Source of the DNA: Achromobacter xylosoxidans
GTDB lineage: Bacteria > Pseudomonadota > Gammaproteobacteria > Burkholderiales > Burkholderiaceae_B
DNA: 64,000 nucleotides
Direction of reading: 5' to 3'
Assembly: GCF_014490035.1 (NCBI RefSeq)
Contig: NZ_CP061008.1
Span: forward strand, 868,001-932,000
This document shows, in pieces, positions 3,183 through 8,874 of the stretch (positions are counted from its first letter, which is position 1; each line of letters begins with the position of its first letter). Made by a program: the position numbers and the translations under genes. Under the pieces are notes generated by a model. The model worked only from the letters and a program-made list of their open reading frames with translations. It was not told where the DNA came from and did not search any database.

Positions 3183-3809
3183 TTACTGGGCCGCCTGCAC
3201 TTCGATCTTCACCGTATTCGAGCGCACGCCGTTCGATTCGATATACACCTCGTAGACCGCCGGATCCTTGGGCAGCTGCACCTGCGCTGCAAGGTCGGTG
3301 CTGAACTGCGTGCCGACGCTGATGCCCGGGCTGATGGGAATGCCCTTGGGCGGACGCGAGCCGGGGATCTCGTCCACTTCCATGCCGGGGCGCTTGCGCG
3401 GCTTGTATTCGTAGGCCACGCCTTCATAGACCGCCTTGGTCTGCGTATTGACGGCGACGAAGCGCGGCAGCTTCTGGTTCTGCGATACGGGGATGATGCC
3501 TTGCGCGCAGACCGGAATGACCAGCGCGCCGGAAGCCTGCGGGCGCACGCGCGCCGGCGCGGCGATGTTGAGCTGGTCGTCGCTGCCATGGTTGGGCGGA
3601 ATGCAGGCGTGGTCGCGCACCGTGCCGATGGGGGCGGTGGCGAACGAAGGCGGGTCGATCCAGTCGGTGTTCATCGTGGTCTTCTGGGGATGAGGGGTGG
3701 GGCGCGCGGCGCTGGCGGCGCCAGGCGCGGCCATGGCGAGCGCGGCCGCGAGCAGCAGGGCCAGCGCCGGCGCCAGGCGGCGCCGCGCGTCAGAACGAGG
3801 GCCAGCCAT
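3183..3809 (-). CDS. Secreted small protein, candidate immunity/partner of the VgrG metallopeptidase
   Basis: 208 residues. A basic N-terminus and an Ala/Leu-rich hydrophobic stretch ending in PGAASA (about residues 12-34) form a signal peptide, so the product is exported. The mature part is beta-rich with two cysteines (HACIPP and VIPVCAQG) that could form a disulfide. Its start overlaps the 3' end of the upstream vgrG by 20 nt, implying translational coupling. By analogy with periplasm-acting T6SS metallopeptidases such as VgrG2b, whose immunity protein is periplasmic, this is the best immunity candidate; I did not recognise a family, so the role is inferred from context. Confidence 0.65.
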   Translation of the reverse strand: MAGPRSDARRRLAPALALLLAAALAMAAPGAASAARPTPHPQKTTMNTDWIDPPSFATAPIGTVRDHACIPPNHGSDDQLNIAAPARVRPQASGALVIPVCAQGIIPVSQNQKLPRFVAVNTQTKAVYEGVAYEYKPRKRPGMEVDEIPGSRPPKGIPISPGISVGTQFSTDLAAQVQLPKDPAVYEVYIESNGVRSNTVKIEVQAAQ

Positions 3810-6800
3810 TGGACATGTCCGTCTTGCGTACGGCCTGGGCGCAGCTGGCGCAGAAGCGGATGCTGACGCAATCGCCGCCGAACATGACGCAGGAACCCAC
3901 GTGGCTGGGATCGGCCTGGCTGACGGGCAGGCCGAAGTGGCAGTGGTTGCCGAACTGGGAATAGAAATACGGCCCCTTGTCGAGTTTGGACGAGTCCATG
4001 TCGGCTTCGTCCGGATGGGCCCGCGCCCACTCGGGGCCGCTGGGCGTCATGCCGATCAGGTGGCCGATCTCGTGCACCAGCGTCTGCTGCAGATAATCCA
4101 GCGTGTTGGGCTCCCAGGGGCTCATCGCCGCCACGCCAAGCAGGTTGGTGCCAGGGAACGCCACGCCGCCTGCGGAGCTTTCCAGCAACCGGACCTTCAG
4201 GATGATCTTGCCCGAGGTCGGCACGGGCACCAGGCCCGCCATGCGGATGTTCAGGCTGTCGCAGGCCTTGGGATTCGCTGGGTCGTAAGGCACCGGGGTC
4301 ATGCGATCCTTGGGGATGGGGACCTGCCTGATGCCGGCCGCAGGGTCGGTGTACTCGAACAGGCATTCGACGTACCAGTCCACGCCAGGCTCGATGTGAT
4401 ACCACAGGAAGCTGAGGGTGCCGTCGGCGTTGACGAACTGCACCTGCTTGTCGGCCGCGCCGGGACCGGCCGAGGCTTGCACGTAAATGGGCTGGACGGG
4501 CAGCATCGTGGCCAGCCGGTCGATGTGGCAGACGACGAGCGTATAGGGCTCGTGGTCCGGGCCCTGCGACCCGGGGTAGACGGACGCAGCCAGCCGGCGC
4601 AGGCGTTCATAGCCGTCGTCCGTGAACACGTCCATGTTGGCGTCGCCGCGCGTGCTGACCGGCGGCAATTGCACCACGTCCACGCCATGCCGCGCGTATT
4701 CCGTCGCGGTCGGCTGGAAGCCGTGGCGGCGCGCCAGCGTCTCGGGGCCGGGCAGCATGATCTCCTGGAGATACAGCCGCCTTGCGGTCTCGACTTGCTC
4801 CGTGGAGATGATCTGGTTCTTGTCGTTCACCACCTCGAACATATAGGTGTTCAGGCCCGCGGCCGGCAGGGTGATGTTGTCGACCACCTTGGTGCCGTCG
4901 GCGTCGGTCACGTAGCTGTAGGAGCGCTGGTTGGGCTCGCGGTACAGCGGTTGGCGGCTTTGCTCGCGCGCGGAGTACACCGCATTGCCCGGACGCGGGC
5001 TGACCTTGACGCTGAAGCGATGCTGGCCGGCCTTGTTGAAGCGCACGCGGATCCTGGGCTTGTTGGTCTGGCGGTCCAGGCTGTCCAGCGCCTGGCCATC
5101 GTTCCAGACCTCGTCCTCTTCCTTCAGGTTGACGTACTGGAGCTTGGCGCCGCTTCTGGCCCGGTAGGCGGACGGCGTGGGCGCGCCGGCATCTGGCGTC
5201 CCAGCCGCCGCGGAGCCGCCCGCGTCCTGGCCGCCAGGCGCGCCCGCGGGCCTCGCCACAGGGCCGGGCAGGCCGACGCCGGCCATTTCCATGACCCGCT
5301 TGGCCATCGCGGGATAGGGCGAGTTGGCCACCGCGGGTATGTTCATGATCGCCTCCGCCACCTTGGGCAGCGTGACGTTGGATATCGTGGGCGATTGCAG
5401 GATGGCGCCGACCACGGACGGAATCGCGGAGTCGGTCAGGCCCGGCGTGCTGAGTATCGCGCCCGCGACCGCGGGCAGATTGCCCTGGTTGACGTCCGGC
5501 ATGGTCAGCAGCGAATTCACCGCCGAGCTCAGCGCGGCGGGGCGGCCGCCCATGGCGCCCATCGCCTGGGTCATGACCGGGCCGATGGCGGACCCCACGC
5601 CGCCGCTGCCGTCGGCGGTCAGGCTGGATGCCTGCGAGGCCACGTCTGACGCTTGCGATGCCATGCCGCCGGCCTTGGACACGGCGCCCGCCGCGTCAGT
5701 CAGCGCCTGGGGCATGGATACCGCGCCGGCCAGCGCGTCGCCAGCGCCCTGTGCCATGTTCATGGTGGAGAGGCCGCCATCCATCAGTGACGGCGTTGCC
5801 ATGCTGGCCAAGGATTGCGTGGCGCCGGTCGCCAGTGAAGGCGTGGCGCCGCCAGTCAGCGACGGAGCCACATTCTGCATGGCGGTCTTCGCCATGCCGC
5901 CGGCCTTGGACATGGCGCCCGACATCAGCTCCGAGCCCGCCTTGCCCGCTGCCTGCATGGTCTTGCCGGCCATCGCGCCCAATTCCTGGACGGGCTTGAG
6001 CGCTTCGCCGGCCATGCTCTTGGCCTGGTCCAGCATGCCGGACGCGCCATCGGCCGCCGCGGACAGACTCTTGGATACGGCAGTCGCGCCGCTGGCAAGC
6101 GCCGCGCCCGCGCTGCCCAGCAGGGAGCCTTGCGATCCAGCGGCCGCGGCTGCCGTGGGGGTTGCAGTCGCGGGAGCCGCGGCCACGGCGCCCGTCGCGC
6201 CAGCCGCATTCAACGCCTGGCCGGAGCCGGCTTGCGCCTGTAGCTTGGCCTTGGGCCGGTGCACCAGTTCGGCAGTGACCAGCATGGGATCGCCCACTTG
6301 CGAGGACGGCAGCGCCGGCAGCGCGGCCGCGTCGCTGGCAGGCCCGATCAGGTTGTGGGATGCGCCCTTGACCGAGAACATCCCCGGCCCCTTGAACACG
6401 ATGTCGCCGCCATTCATGACGATGCTGGCGCCAGCGGCCTGCAGGGTGATGCTTTGGTTCGCCAGGATCTCGATGCTGTCGGTGGTGGAGGTGACGGTGA
6501 TGTCCTGGCCGGCCAGCATCTCCAGCATGTCGGTATGCGCGTGGATCGACACCGGCGATTCGGCCGCGACGGCGCGGATGCCGCCGTCCTGCACGAACAG
6601 GCTGGTGGAGCGGCCGGAGGCCGTGGCAAAGGTCTGGCGCGCGGCCACGTGGCCGTCGGCTTGCGCCGTGACGTGCAGGTTTTCGCTGGCGTGCAGGATG
6701 GCCGAGGCGGGCGTGGCGAAGTTCAGTGAGGACGGCGCGTCGATCAGCATGCGGGCGCCGTCGATGCGCTCCACTGCGTCCGTGCCGGTGCGCTCGCCGC

Positions 6801-8874
6801 CGCTGGCCTTGATCGCCTGCTGGCCGCCTACGCTGCCCGGATAGCGGCCGTCGCCCTTGGGGTCGATGGCGCGGGTCAGCGCATCGTATTGGCTGGTGGC
6901 CGCGAGCGCGCGCGCCTGGCGCTGCGTGCCGGCGGTATCCAGGCGCTGCGCCGCATTCTGCGCGCCGCGCAGCAGCGCCAGCGCTTCCTGCGAGTCGGCC
7001 TGGGTAGAGCGTGCATCCTTGCGTGCGTTGGCGGACAGCAGCATGCCTTGCCCGGAGCGCACCACGGTCCAGGCGTCCGAACGCAGTTCGAAGCCGGTGC
7101 CGCGCCATGCGCCGCGATTGGATTCATCCGCGCCCTGTTCGACCAGATAGCCCAGGCCCAGCTGCGTGGCGCCGATGGAGCTCGACAGGCGCGTGCGCAT
7201 CTGCCGGGGCGTGTCGTCGAACAGCCATTGGCTGTGGCCCTCGCCGTCCAGGCCCTTGCTGTGCCAGCCGCTGAGCCTGCCGGGATGATTGGCGTCGGCG
7301 TCCTCTCCGGCGGACCAGGGCGGCAGGTCGGCGTCGTTGTACAGCTGCGCCGAGGCCACGGGCTGGTCGATGTCGCCGTCCAGGAACTCGACCAGGACCT
7401 CGGTGCCTTTGCGCGGCAGATGGTGCGCGCCCCAGTTGGGGCCGGCCTGCGCGCCTGCGACGCGCAGCCAGGTGCCGGAACTGTCGTCGCCCGGGGCATT
7501 GCCGGTGTCGTCGCCATGGCTGCGGTGCGCCAGGCCGCCCGGCAGCGGACGCGCGCCGCGCTGCCAGGGGAATTGCACCTTGATGCGTAGATCGCGGCCC
7601 GAGGAAATGGGCGCGTCCCGCGCGGCCACCACCACGGCCGCCAGGCCTTCGGGCGCAGTGGGCTTGGCGCGCCAGCCGGGCGCAAGCGGCGCGGCCGCGG
7701 GCAGGGCGCCGAAGGTATTGCGGTATGAGCCGTGTTCCAGATCGGAATCGCCCAGCGCCTGGGCAGCCTGGCTGCCCAGGTTGTTGGCGGCTTCGTGTTC
7801 GACGTGCAGCAGCGTGTAGCGGTTGCCGCCCATCTCGTCGACGGCCTGGCCAGAGCCCGCGGCGTAGCGGCTGTGCTGCGTCAGCGTGAAGTCATGGCCG
7901 GGCATCATCTGGCGGGCCGTGCCGCCGCCGTCAAAGCGCACCATGCGGGCTTCGTGCGCCTGCAGGCTGCGCGCGGCCGCCAGTTCCGCGCTGTCGCCGT
8001 CGGCATGGCGGCCGTGGCCGTCGTAGTCGTAGTCTTCAAGGCGGGGCACCGCGCCGGCTGCGACGTCGGACTGCGCATGCGCTGCGTGCGCGAGCAGCTT
8101 GCGATCGTCCCAGGCCAGGCGCGTCACGGCGTTGGGCCGTACCGCGCGGGACGCGCCGAAGCGCGTGATGCTGTCCTCGGTTTCGGTGGCGTCGCTGCGG
8201 TGAAAGTGCAGCGCGGCATCGGGGCAGGCCGGCCGCGCCGCGCGCGTGTCGAACACGACCAGCCGGTGCCGCGCGCCGCCCGAGGCCTCGTCTTGTTGTT
8301 CGCCCTGCTGGTGGTCGAAGCGGAAGCTCAAGCCGGCTTCGGCCAGCAGGCGTAGCACGAAGGCCAGGTCGGTTTCGCGGTACTGCGTGCGCAGCGCGCG
8401 CGGAGCGGGCGGTTCGGCGATGTCGAACGAGTAGGCCGCCTGCGGATAGTCGGCGAAGATCTCGCTCAGGATGTCGGTGACCGACTTGTCCTGGTACAGA
8501 AAGCTGTCGCGGCGCAGGCCCAGGGCCGCCAGCCAGGGCGCGGCGTGCAGCCGGTAGCGCGCCAGGCCGCCGTCCGCGCCCAGCGCGTCCACGCCTTCCA
8601 CCACCGCATGCCATTGGCGCCTGTTGCCGTCGGCCAGCAGCAGGCTGACGCTGATCTCGCGGCCCAGCAGGGCTTGCACATCCAGTTCGGCGGAGGACGC
8701 CAGGCAGTCCAGCGTCAGGGCAAACAGTTCGGAGACGCCTTCGCGCAGATTCATGCGCTCTACCGCGAGCGCCGCATCCAGGGGCGTGCGCACCTGCAGC
8801 ATGCGGGCGTTCTGGGAGAGGGCGGCTACATCCAGGCTGCTGAACCCGGCGGGCGCTTGGGAACGGTCGGTCAT
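3790..8874 (-). CDS. vgrG: Evolved VgrG (TssI) with C-terminal zinc metallopeptidase-like domain
   Basis: 1694 residues, about twice a structural VgrG. Residues 1-600 are the gp27/gp5-like VgrG core (QYRETDLAFVLRLLAEAG; GTEVLVEFLDGDIDQP). Residues ~700-845 match the DUF2345-type beta-helix extension. Residues ~850-1235 are an Ala/Gly/Met-rich linker containing four 18-residue repeats (1132-1197). Residues ~1240-1694 are the effector domain with HEIGH at 1601-1605 and IG immediately after; HCH at 1644-1646 and Glu/Asp residues at 1615-1627 are candidate third ligands. The end is Cys-rich (CVMFGGDC, CASC). The trimeric spike would deliver the peptidase into a target cell. The gene follows tssL by 25 nt and overlaps the secreted protein downstream. 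VgrG identity is secure; peptidase activity is inferred from the motif. Confidence 0.93.
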   Translation of the reverse strand: MTDRSQAPAGFSSLDVAALSQNARMLQVRTPLDAALAVERMNLREGVSELFALTLDCLASSAELDVQALLGREISVSLLLADGNRRQWHAVVEGVDALGADGGLARYRLHAAPWLAALGLRRDSFLYQDKSVTDILSEIFADYPQAAYSFDIAEPPAPRALRTQYRETDLAFVLRLLAEAGLSFRFDHQQGEQQDEASGGARHRLVVFDTRAARPACPDAALHFHRSDATETEDSITRFGASRAVRPNAVTRLAWDDRKLLAHAAHAQSDVAAGAVPRLEDYDYDGHGRHADGDSAELAAARSLQAHEARMVRFDGGGTARQMMPGHDFTLTQHSRYAAGSGQAVDEMGGNRYTLLHVEHEAANNLGSQAAQALGDSDLEHGSYRNTFGALPAAAPLAPGWRAKPTAPEGLAAVVVAARDAPISSGRDLRIKVQFPWQRGARPLPGGLAHRSHGDDTGNAPGDDSSGTWLRVAGAQAGPNWGAHHLPRKGTEVLVEFLDGDIDQPVASAQLYNDADLPPWSAGEDADANHPGRLSGWHSKGLDGEGHSQWLFDDTPRQMRTRLSSSIGATQLGLGYLVEQGADESNRGAWRGTGFELRSDAWTVVRSGQGMLLSANARKDARSTQADSQEALALLRGAQNAAQRLDTAGTQRQARALAATSQYDALTRAIDPKGDGRYPGSVGGQQAIKASGGERTGTDAVERIDGARMLIDAPSSLNFATPASAILHASENLHVTAQADGHVAARQTFATASGRSTSLFVQDGGIRAVAAESPVSIHAHTDMLEMLAGQDITVTSTTDSIEILANQSITLQAAGASIVMNGGDIVFKGPGMFSVKGASHNLIGPASDAAALPALPSSQVGDPMLVTAELVHRPKAKLQAQAGSGQALNAAGATGAVAAAPATATPTAAAAAGSQGSLLGSAGAALASGATAVSKSLSAAADGASGMLDQAKSMAGEALKPVQELGAMAGKTMQAAGKAGSELMSGAMSKAGGMAKTAMQNVAPSLTGGATPSLATGATQSLASMATPSLMDGGLSTMNMAQGAGDALAGAVSMPQALTDAAGAVSKAGGMASQASDVASQASSLTADGSGGVGSAIGPVMTQAMGAMGGRPAALSSAVNSLLTMPDVNQGNLPAVAGAILSTPGLTDSAIPSVVGAILQSPTISNVTLPKVAEAIMNIPAVANSPYPAMAKRVMEMAGVGLPGPVARPAGAPGGQDAGGSAAAGTPDAGAPTPSAYRARSGAKLQYVNLKEEDEVWNDGQALDSLDRQTNKPRIRVRFNKAGQHRFSVKVSPRPGNAVYSAREQSRQPLYREPNQRSYSYVTDADGTKVVDNITLPAAGLNTYMFEVVNDKNQIISTEQVETARRLYLQEIMLPGPETLARRHGFQPTATEYARHGVDVVQLPPVSTRGDANMDVFTDDGYERLRRLAASVYPGSQGPDHEPYTLVVCHIDRLATMLPVQPIYVQASAGPGAADKQVQFVNADGTLSFLWYHIEPGVDWYVECLFEYTDPAAGIRQVPIPKDRMTPVPYDPANPKACDSLNIRMAGLVPVPTSGKIILKVRLLESSAGGVAFPGTNLLGVAAMSPWEPNTLDYLQQTLVHEIGHLIGMTPSGPEWARAHPDEADMDSSKLDKGPYFYSQFGNHCHFGLPVSQADPSHVGSCVMFGGDCVSIRFCASCAQAVRKTDMSNGWPSF

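Follow-up and report, generated by a model that had tools for sequence, protein, structure and literature searches.

A VgrG of Achromobacter xylosoxidans with a predicted metzincin-like peptidase domain and a probable immunity partner

Gene pair and architecture of the VgrG

The 64,000-nucleotide stretch analysed here, called the window, belongs to the single 6.76-Mb contig that makes up the source genome of Achromobacter xylosoxidans, and it carries a gene for a VgrG protein of 1694 amino acids that ends in a predicted zinc peptidase. This open reading frame lies on the reverse strand (8874..3790), as do all features of the VgrG and its partner given below. The gene that follows it (3809..3183) encodes a partner of 208 amino acids with an N-terminal leader, probably an immunity protein. 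The two genes share the 20 nucleotides from 3790 to 3809, an overlap that an earlier note on this DNA had read correctly. A Pfam scan of the neighbourhood found genes for DotU/TssL, TssK and TssJ immediately upstream of the VgrG gene, which places it in a type VI secretion system (T6SS) cluster.

The spike core of the VgrG comprises residues 1–846 (6337..8874) and matches the Pfam families Phage_GPD (E 8.5e-73), Phage_base_V, T6SS_Vgr and DUF2345 above cut-off, as well as NCBIfam TIGR03361. A low-complexity Ala/Gly/Ser linker, recognised by its composition, comprises residues 847–1119 (5518..6336); the three residue types make up 26%, 14% and 12%, respectively, of residues 851–1120. The segment of approximately residues 1120–1200 (5275..5517) appears repeat-like by eye and is conserved. 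With residues 1120–1239 as the query, 36 of the 43 Achromobacter genomes searched gave a match, namely all 35 effector-carrying genomes and one further genome, which matched weakly. Residues 1258–1364 (residues 19–125 of the structural model; 4783..5103) adopt an FN3-like β-sandwich in the model, and residues 1362–1694 (3793..4791) form the metzincin-like peptidase domain, assigned from a fold match and conserved residues. With a complete spike core, a C-terminal effector extension and T6SS genes upstream, the protein is an evolved (specialised) VgrG. Neither its last 455 residues nor the partner matched a Pfam or NCBIfam family over the cut-off.

Predicted zinc site and fold of the peptidase domain

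The HEIGH motif lies at residues 1601–1605 (4060..4074); H1601 and H1605 are predicted to bind zinc, with E1602 as the catalytic glutamate. Conservation was read from an alignment of 42 sequences including that of the window (36 plus those of loci L059, L069, L070, L071, L075 and L090), 41 of them distinct. The L071 sequence may lack some of its N-terminal part, and a truncated copy at L085 was counted apart. Constant in all 42 sequences are H1601, E1602, G1604, H1605, G1642, H1644, C1645, C1662, M1664, C1675, C1678 and D1686, the last an aspartate near the C-terminus (3817–3819). The pair H1644–C1645 (3940..3945), also present in the truncated copy, likely provides the third zinc ligand and the first cysteine of a set of four. 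C1662-V-M1664 (3883..3891) holds the second cysteine and the putative Met-turn methionine, and C1675-x-x-C1678 (3841..3852) holds the third and fourth cysteines.

The earlier note had remarked on a proline where a metzincin would place a zinc ligand, and P1611 does occupy the canonical third-ligand position of HExxHxxGxxH. This oddity would be explained by 33 residues inserted between the active-site helix and H1644; the insertion before the corresponding histidine measures 24 residues in L071, 18 in L075 and 46 in L090. As third-ligand candidates the note had named an acidic residue at 1615–1627 or the HCH at 1644–1646. The sequences favour the latter, through H1644, because this residue is constant while position 1615 (Glu in 18 and Asp in 14 of the 42 sequences), position 1623 (Glu in 15, Asp in 14) and position 1627 (Asp in 37) vary. 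The acidic residues, which are not conserved across the wider family, are unlikely ligands. Five cysteines are found at the end of the VgrG, as had been counted before (1645, 1662, 1669, 1675 and 1678); the one outside the constant set, C1669, is a cysteine in 33 of the 42 sequences. At L085 (1366–1692), the effector is reduced to its cysteine-rich end with a leucine in place of the Met-turn methionine, and the partner genes are kept. A 332-amino-acid open frame upstream of this remnant is transposase-like by eye.

In the structural model of the 455-residue region (1240–1694), model residues 123–374 match the metzincin catalytic fold. ADAM17 is the nearest solved structure among the fold matches listed, many of which are FN3 domains, and VgrG2bC-ter is absent among them. 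Weak reprolysin profile matches were seen in distant relatives, none reaching the cut-off; the best, to PF13574, scored 20.9 bits against a cut-off of 27 and came from a relative, not from the window. The NCBIfam serralysin profile gave 13.1 bits against a cut-off of 500. The domain thus resembles the adamalysins/reprolysins (ADAM17) in its fold and in these weak matches, and differs from them in that the likely third histidine lies 33 residues further along and no profile reaches its cut-off. Taken together, the conserved residues and the fold match suggest that the domain is metzincin-like. The earlier proposal that the VgrG bears a metallopeptidase and that a partner gene is coupled to it is supported as a prediction.

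Distribution and the partner protein

The 455-residue region was found in 35 of the 43 Achromobacter genomes searched and the partner in the same 35, so the pairing is not due to chance. With the last 368 residues as the query, 6 of 151 genomes of the taxonomic family matched, five of them from the genus (the source genome included) and one from another genus. Profile searches of wider samples matched 1 of 399 genomes of the order (the window's own), 4 of 369 of the class and 5 of 398 of the phylum, the last two counts including the source genome. The four other phylum matches are the truncated member at L085 and three weak ones, of which the one inspected (L088) is serralysin-like by eye. The taxonomic family of one distant match (2 of 40 genomes) added a full-length member in genome G1354, and that of genome G915 yielded no further genome (1 of 54, G915 itself). 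The genomes of the distant relatives fall in the window's class, which we take to be Gammaproteobacteria in GTDB. Among named genomes, 26 loci were detected, 25 of them in Achromobacter (one metagenome-assembled) and one in Bordetella; the closest matches to the domain are in Achromobacter, with 98% identity in, for example, A. insolitus and A. aegrifaciens. The plasmid records searched with the effector region gave no match.

In the near clade (22 loci with the window), the domain ends frames of 1628–1958 amino acids where the loci were read far enough; these lengths leave out L013 and L020, whose genes are cut by contig ends, and the Pfam confirmation of the VgrG core in this clade concerns the window only. 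A sister Achromobacter clade (13 loci) and the Bordetella locus have longer stop-to-stop frames of 2662–2990 amino acids, the fragment L026 excepted, with VgrG cores confirmed in L058, L059 and L061. The stretch from residue 850 to the effector is 389 residues long in the window and reaches 1465 in L061 and 1528 in L059; between the window and L061 the VgrG cores are 68% and the effectors 45% identical. The VgrG proteins of L061 (2559–10865) and L059 (2367–10877) have 2768 and 2836 amino acids, respectively, and the 1465 residues of L061 are rich in Ala, Ser, Gly and Thr. Two relatives, L077 and L079, have the effector as a gene of its own; a PAAR-like gene (PF13665) immediately precedes it, and a VgrG gene lies upstream. 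The L077 locus also matches DUF2169 and the L079 locus a ketoacyl-synthase domain, each family scanned in one locus only. Both neighbourhoods look like an ordinary T6SS effector island, which supports T6SS delivery of the fused and the separate effector forms. A second PAAR-like gene (by eye) lies at L079 9076–12282, followed by a shortened effector copy of 245 amino acids and further partner-like genes with leaders by eye, as in orphan immunity arrays.

In all 36 loci examined, the partner gene comes after that of the effector, on the same strand. Its start codon (ATG in 16, GTG in 6) falls within the VgrG gene in the 22 near-clade loci, 20 nucleotides short of the end. A conserved internal methionine lies at a distance of 97 to 151 nucleotides from the VgrG stop, with ten different values that are all equal to 1 modulo 3, so the leader is translated; its reading frame is kept in 22 of 22 loci. 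By eye, the leader in the window has a basic start and a hydrophobic core. Export of the partner in the window's clade is well supported by these sequence features. The secreted partner of the earlier note therefore stands for this clade but is no rule for the family. In the 13 sister-clade loci the same distance is 33 to 85 nucleotides, spread over all three frames, and no in-frame start occurs earlier than 3 residues before the conserved methionine (7 in one locus). Both these 13 loci and the Bordetella locus, where the distance is 15 nucleotides, lack an upstream in-frame start that would leave room for a signal peptide, and the partner there begins MPIMTTDW or MNADW. The L038 partner has a lipobox-like leader, and a hydrophobic leader is seen by eye in five of six partners of distant relatives, the sixth being that of L069.

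The conserved methionine is Met46 of the window's partner (MNTDW; 3672..3674) and is kept across clades in the motif M[NTR]xDW, present at all 26 named-genome loci and at all 36 loci of the partner survey. An aligned methionine is found in 10 of 11 diverse partners, a count that the aligner may favour. The 27 Achromobacter and Bordetella partners aligned all have cysteines at positions 69 and 101. Shine–Dalgarno-like cores are found at the internal start in three of five distant cases; none was found in the 36 loci of Achromobacter and L038.

In loci of distant relatives, a second small gene follows the partner, namely in L069 (2961–3365), L070 (2894–3250), L090 (422–802) and L085 (2387–2767). 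It was not detectably related to the first partner by BLASTP in the one pair compared, and at this place L071 has a single longer protein of 348 amino acids. A short frame for a hydrophobic peptide lies between the effector and the leaderless partner of L069 (2293–2412). On the forward strand of the window, neighbouring genes at 468–1217 and 1447–1986 encode similar products (63% identity over 177 amino acids) that gave no match in the Pfam scan and have N-termini that are hydrophobic by eye. These are possibly an immunity array for another effector.

Proposed function and its alternatives

The reading that we favour, with a probability of about 0.72, is that the VgrG is a T6SS spike carrying an FN3-like domain and a metzincin-type zinc endopeptidase that acts against bacteria and is neutralised by the product of the overlapping gene. 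The Ala/Gly/Ser linker and the conserved pre-effector segment would connect the spike to the FN3-like domain and the protease. The catalytic zinc would be held by H1601, H1605 and H1644; E1602 would act as the general base, and the Met-turn would contain M1664. The cysteines C1645, C1662, C1675 and C1678 may play a structural role, by binding a zinc (Cys4) as archaemetzincins do or by pairing into two disulfides as in metzincins of the adamalysin type. The T6SS would carry the protease into neighbouring bacteria, where envelope or periplasmic proteins are most likely cut. The 208-residue partner, exported in the window's clade, would bind and neutralise the protease and so probably protects the owner cell.

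The plan is like that of VgrG2b/Tpe1, a HEXXH peptidase fused to VgrG (or separate) with a small gene downstream (PMC6899460). There, immunity proteins (PA0261/Tpi1) reach the envelope by differing means: a signal peptide, a lipobox or a membrane helix. In their genetics the two pairs are closely parallel, with neighbouring genes, more than one route to the envelope (predicted here) and cysteines that are partly conserved in the small protein (PMC6899460). The likeness to VgrG2b drawn in the earlier note is one of architecture (VgrG, peptidase and partner) and does not extend to the enzyme. VgrG2bC-ter is a gluzincin of the thermolysin type whose third ligand is Glu983 (PMC6899460), whereas here the residues and fold are metzincin-like, with a likely histidine as the third ligand, four conserved cysteines and an extra FN3-like domain. 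By analogy, the protein may work like VgrG2b; the evidence does not imply that it is a member of that family.

Several results weigh against the reading of an antibacterial metzincin-type effector. The canonical HExxHxxGxxH spacing is broken, by 33 residues in the window and by 18 to 46 in three distant relatives. The structural model is of modest quality (mean predicted local distance difference test score (pLDDT) 65, predicted template modelling score 0.55). Its residues 369–455, which hold H1644 and the cysteines, have a pLDDT below 50; the three histidines and the Met-turn residue are constant in all 42 sequences, and the zinc-site geometry is of low confidence. The archaemetzincin profile PF07998 gave no match over the cut-off at the domain in any of four genomes (one weak match lies elsewhere in G915), in a search whose control matched 6 of 14 genomes. 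The chief result on this side is the leaderless sister-clade partners, which are awkward for purely periplasmic immunity.

Two other assignments of the enzyme were weighed. The shared plan of VgrG, metallopeptidase and downstream partner would also fit a long variant of the Tpe–Tpi family, a VgrG2b-type gluzincin with an acidic third ligand in 1615–1627, and D1627 is indeed invariant among 27 Achromobacter and Bordetella sequences. This is highly improbable, since positions 1615, 1623 and 1627 vary or are missing in distant relatives while H1644 is constant. Across the 42 sequences none of the three positions has a conserved acidic residue; D1686 is constant. Moreover, the fold match goes to metzincins, and E983 of VgrG2bC-ter lies on a later helix (PMC6899460). 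When PDB sequences were searched with a profile up to E 10, neither VgrG2b nor an archaemetzincin was named among the 30 matches listed, an absence that is no proof. It is possible but doubtful that the domain is a genuine M54 archaemetzincin put to use as a toxin, in which four cysteines form a zinc finger (Cys4) and inserted residues separate the third histidine from the active-site helix. The order H,E,H..HC..CxM..CxxC, present in all 42 sequences, is that of the published fingerprint HEXXHXXGXXHCX4CXMX17CXXC (PMC3427221). However, there are 33 extra residues before HC, 16 rather than 4 residues between the first two cysteines and 10 rather than 17 from the methionine to CxxC, and the glycine of HExxHxxG is not invariant. 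The fusion to a T6SS spike, the lack of a PF07998 match to the domain and the place of ADAM17 as best among the fold matches listed, in a list filled by FN3 domains, also set it apart from that family.

The role of the partner and the target of the enzyme admit other explanations. The partner might be a chaperone, loading factor or co-secreted protease subunit rather than an immunity protein, as the leaderless forms of the 13 sister-clade loci, Bordetella and L069 could share a compartment with the unfired VgrG. Such forms could protect in the cytoplasm before firing or serve as a loading factor. For the partner as a whole we consider the explanation unlikely, given the exported or lipoprotein-like N-termini, by eye, of the window clade, L038 and five of six distant partners, and the partner-like genes (by eye) of L079, which lie beside the shortened second effector copy as orphan immunity genes would. 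Even less probable is an effector that acts mainly on eukaryotic cells. The ADAM17-like fold would suit such a target, an action on eukaryotic cells was earlier proposed for VgrG2b (PMC6899460), and Achromobacter is an opportunist (PMC9245596). The partner accompanies the effector at all 36 loci and in the same 35 of 43 genomes, a coupling that, by the argument used for VgrG2b, is usual for antibacterial effectors (PMC6899460), and the distant relatives sit in T6SS effector islands.

A bolder version, which we think improbable, would make this a two-compartment system. While the protease is still in the attacker's reducing cytoplasm, its four cysteines would bind zinc; once in the prey's oxidising periplasm they would pair into two disulfides, making delivery the step that matures the enzyme. 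Such a redox switch is conceivable because archaemetzincins bind a second zinc with four cysteines where other metzincins have two disulfides; oxidation of the Cys4 site was raised there as a speculative control, but the conclusion reached was that of a structural role (PMC3427221). One gene would give a long exported partner and, from the conserved internal ATG, a short cytosolic one, guarding the cell before firing and after an incoming attack; certain clades would have the short form only. The second form is suggested by the conservation of the methionine and by the Shine–Dalgarno-like cores in the distant cases. A similar alternative downstream ATG, giving a cytosolic form beside the exported one, was proposed for the X-Tfi immunity proteins of bacteria-killing type IV secretion systems (PMC6536674). 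Those are lipoproteins of type IV secretion pairs, unlike the present family, in which the internal methionine is family-wide and some clades have the short form only.

No description of this metzincin-like VgrG effector family was found in the open-licence literature searched, a scope outside which most subscription papers lie. Several toxin domains with HExxH appear in a survey of polymorphic toxins from 2012, and in the part covered none is described with this cysteine pattern (PMC3482391). Where a 2024 effector–immunity survey names a metallopeptidase, in the part covered, it cites VgrG2b (PMC11148199), and a study of Achromobacter reports a secreted 'VgrG1b + effector' whose activity is unstated there (PMC9245596). 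The known VgrG-carried protease warhead in this literature is the VgrG2b/Tpe gluzincin. If the favoured reading is true, a metzincin warhead with archaemetzincin-like cysteines would be a second protease solution for T6SS killing, and the prediction of H1644 as a ligand comes down to a test of a single residue. The partner family, exported or leaderless according to clade and built around one conserved methionine, would also make it testable where a cell needs protection from its own weapon: in the periplasm, the cytoplasm or both.
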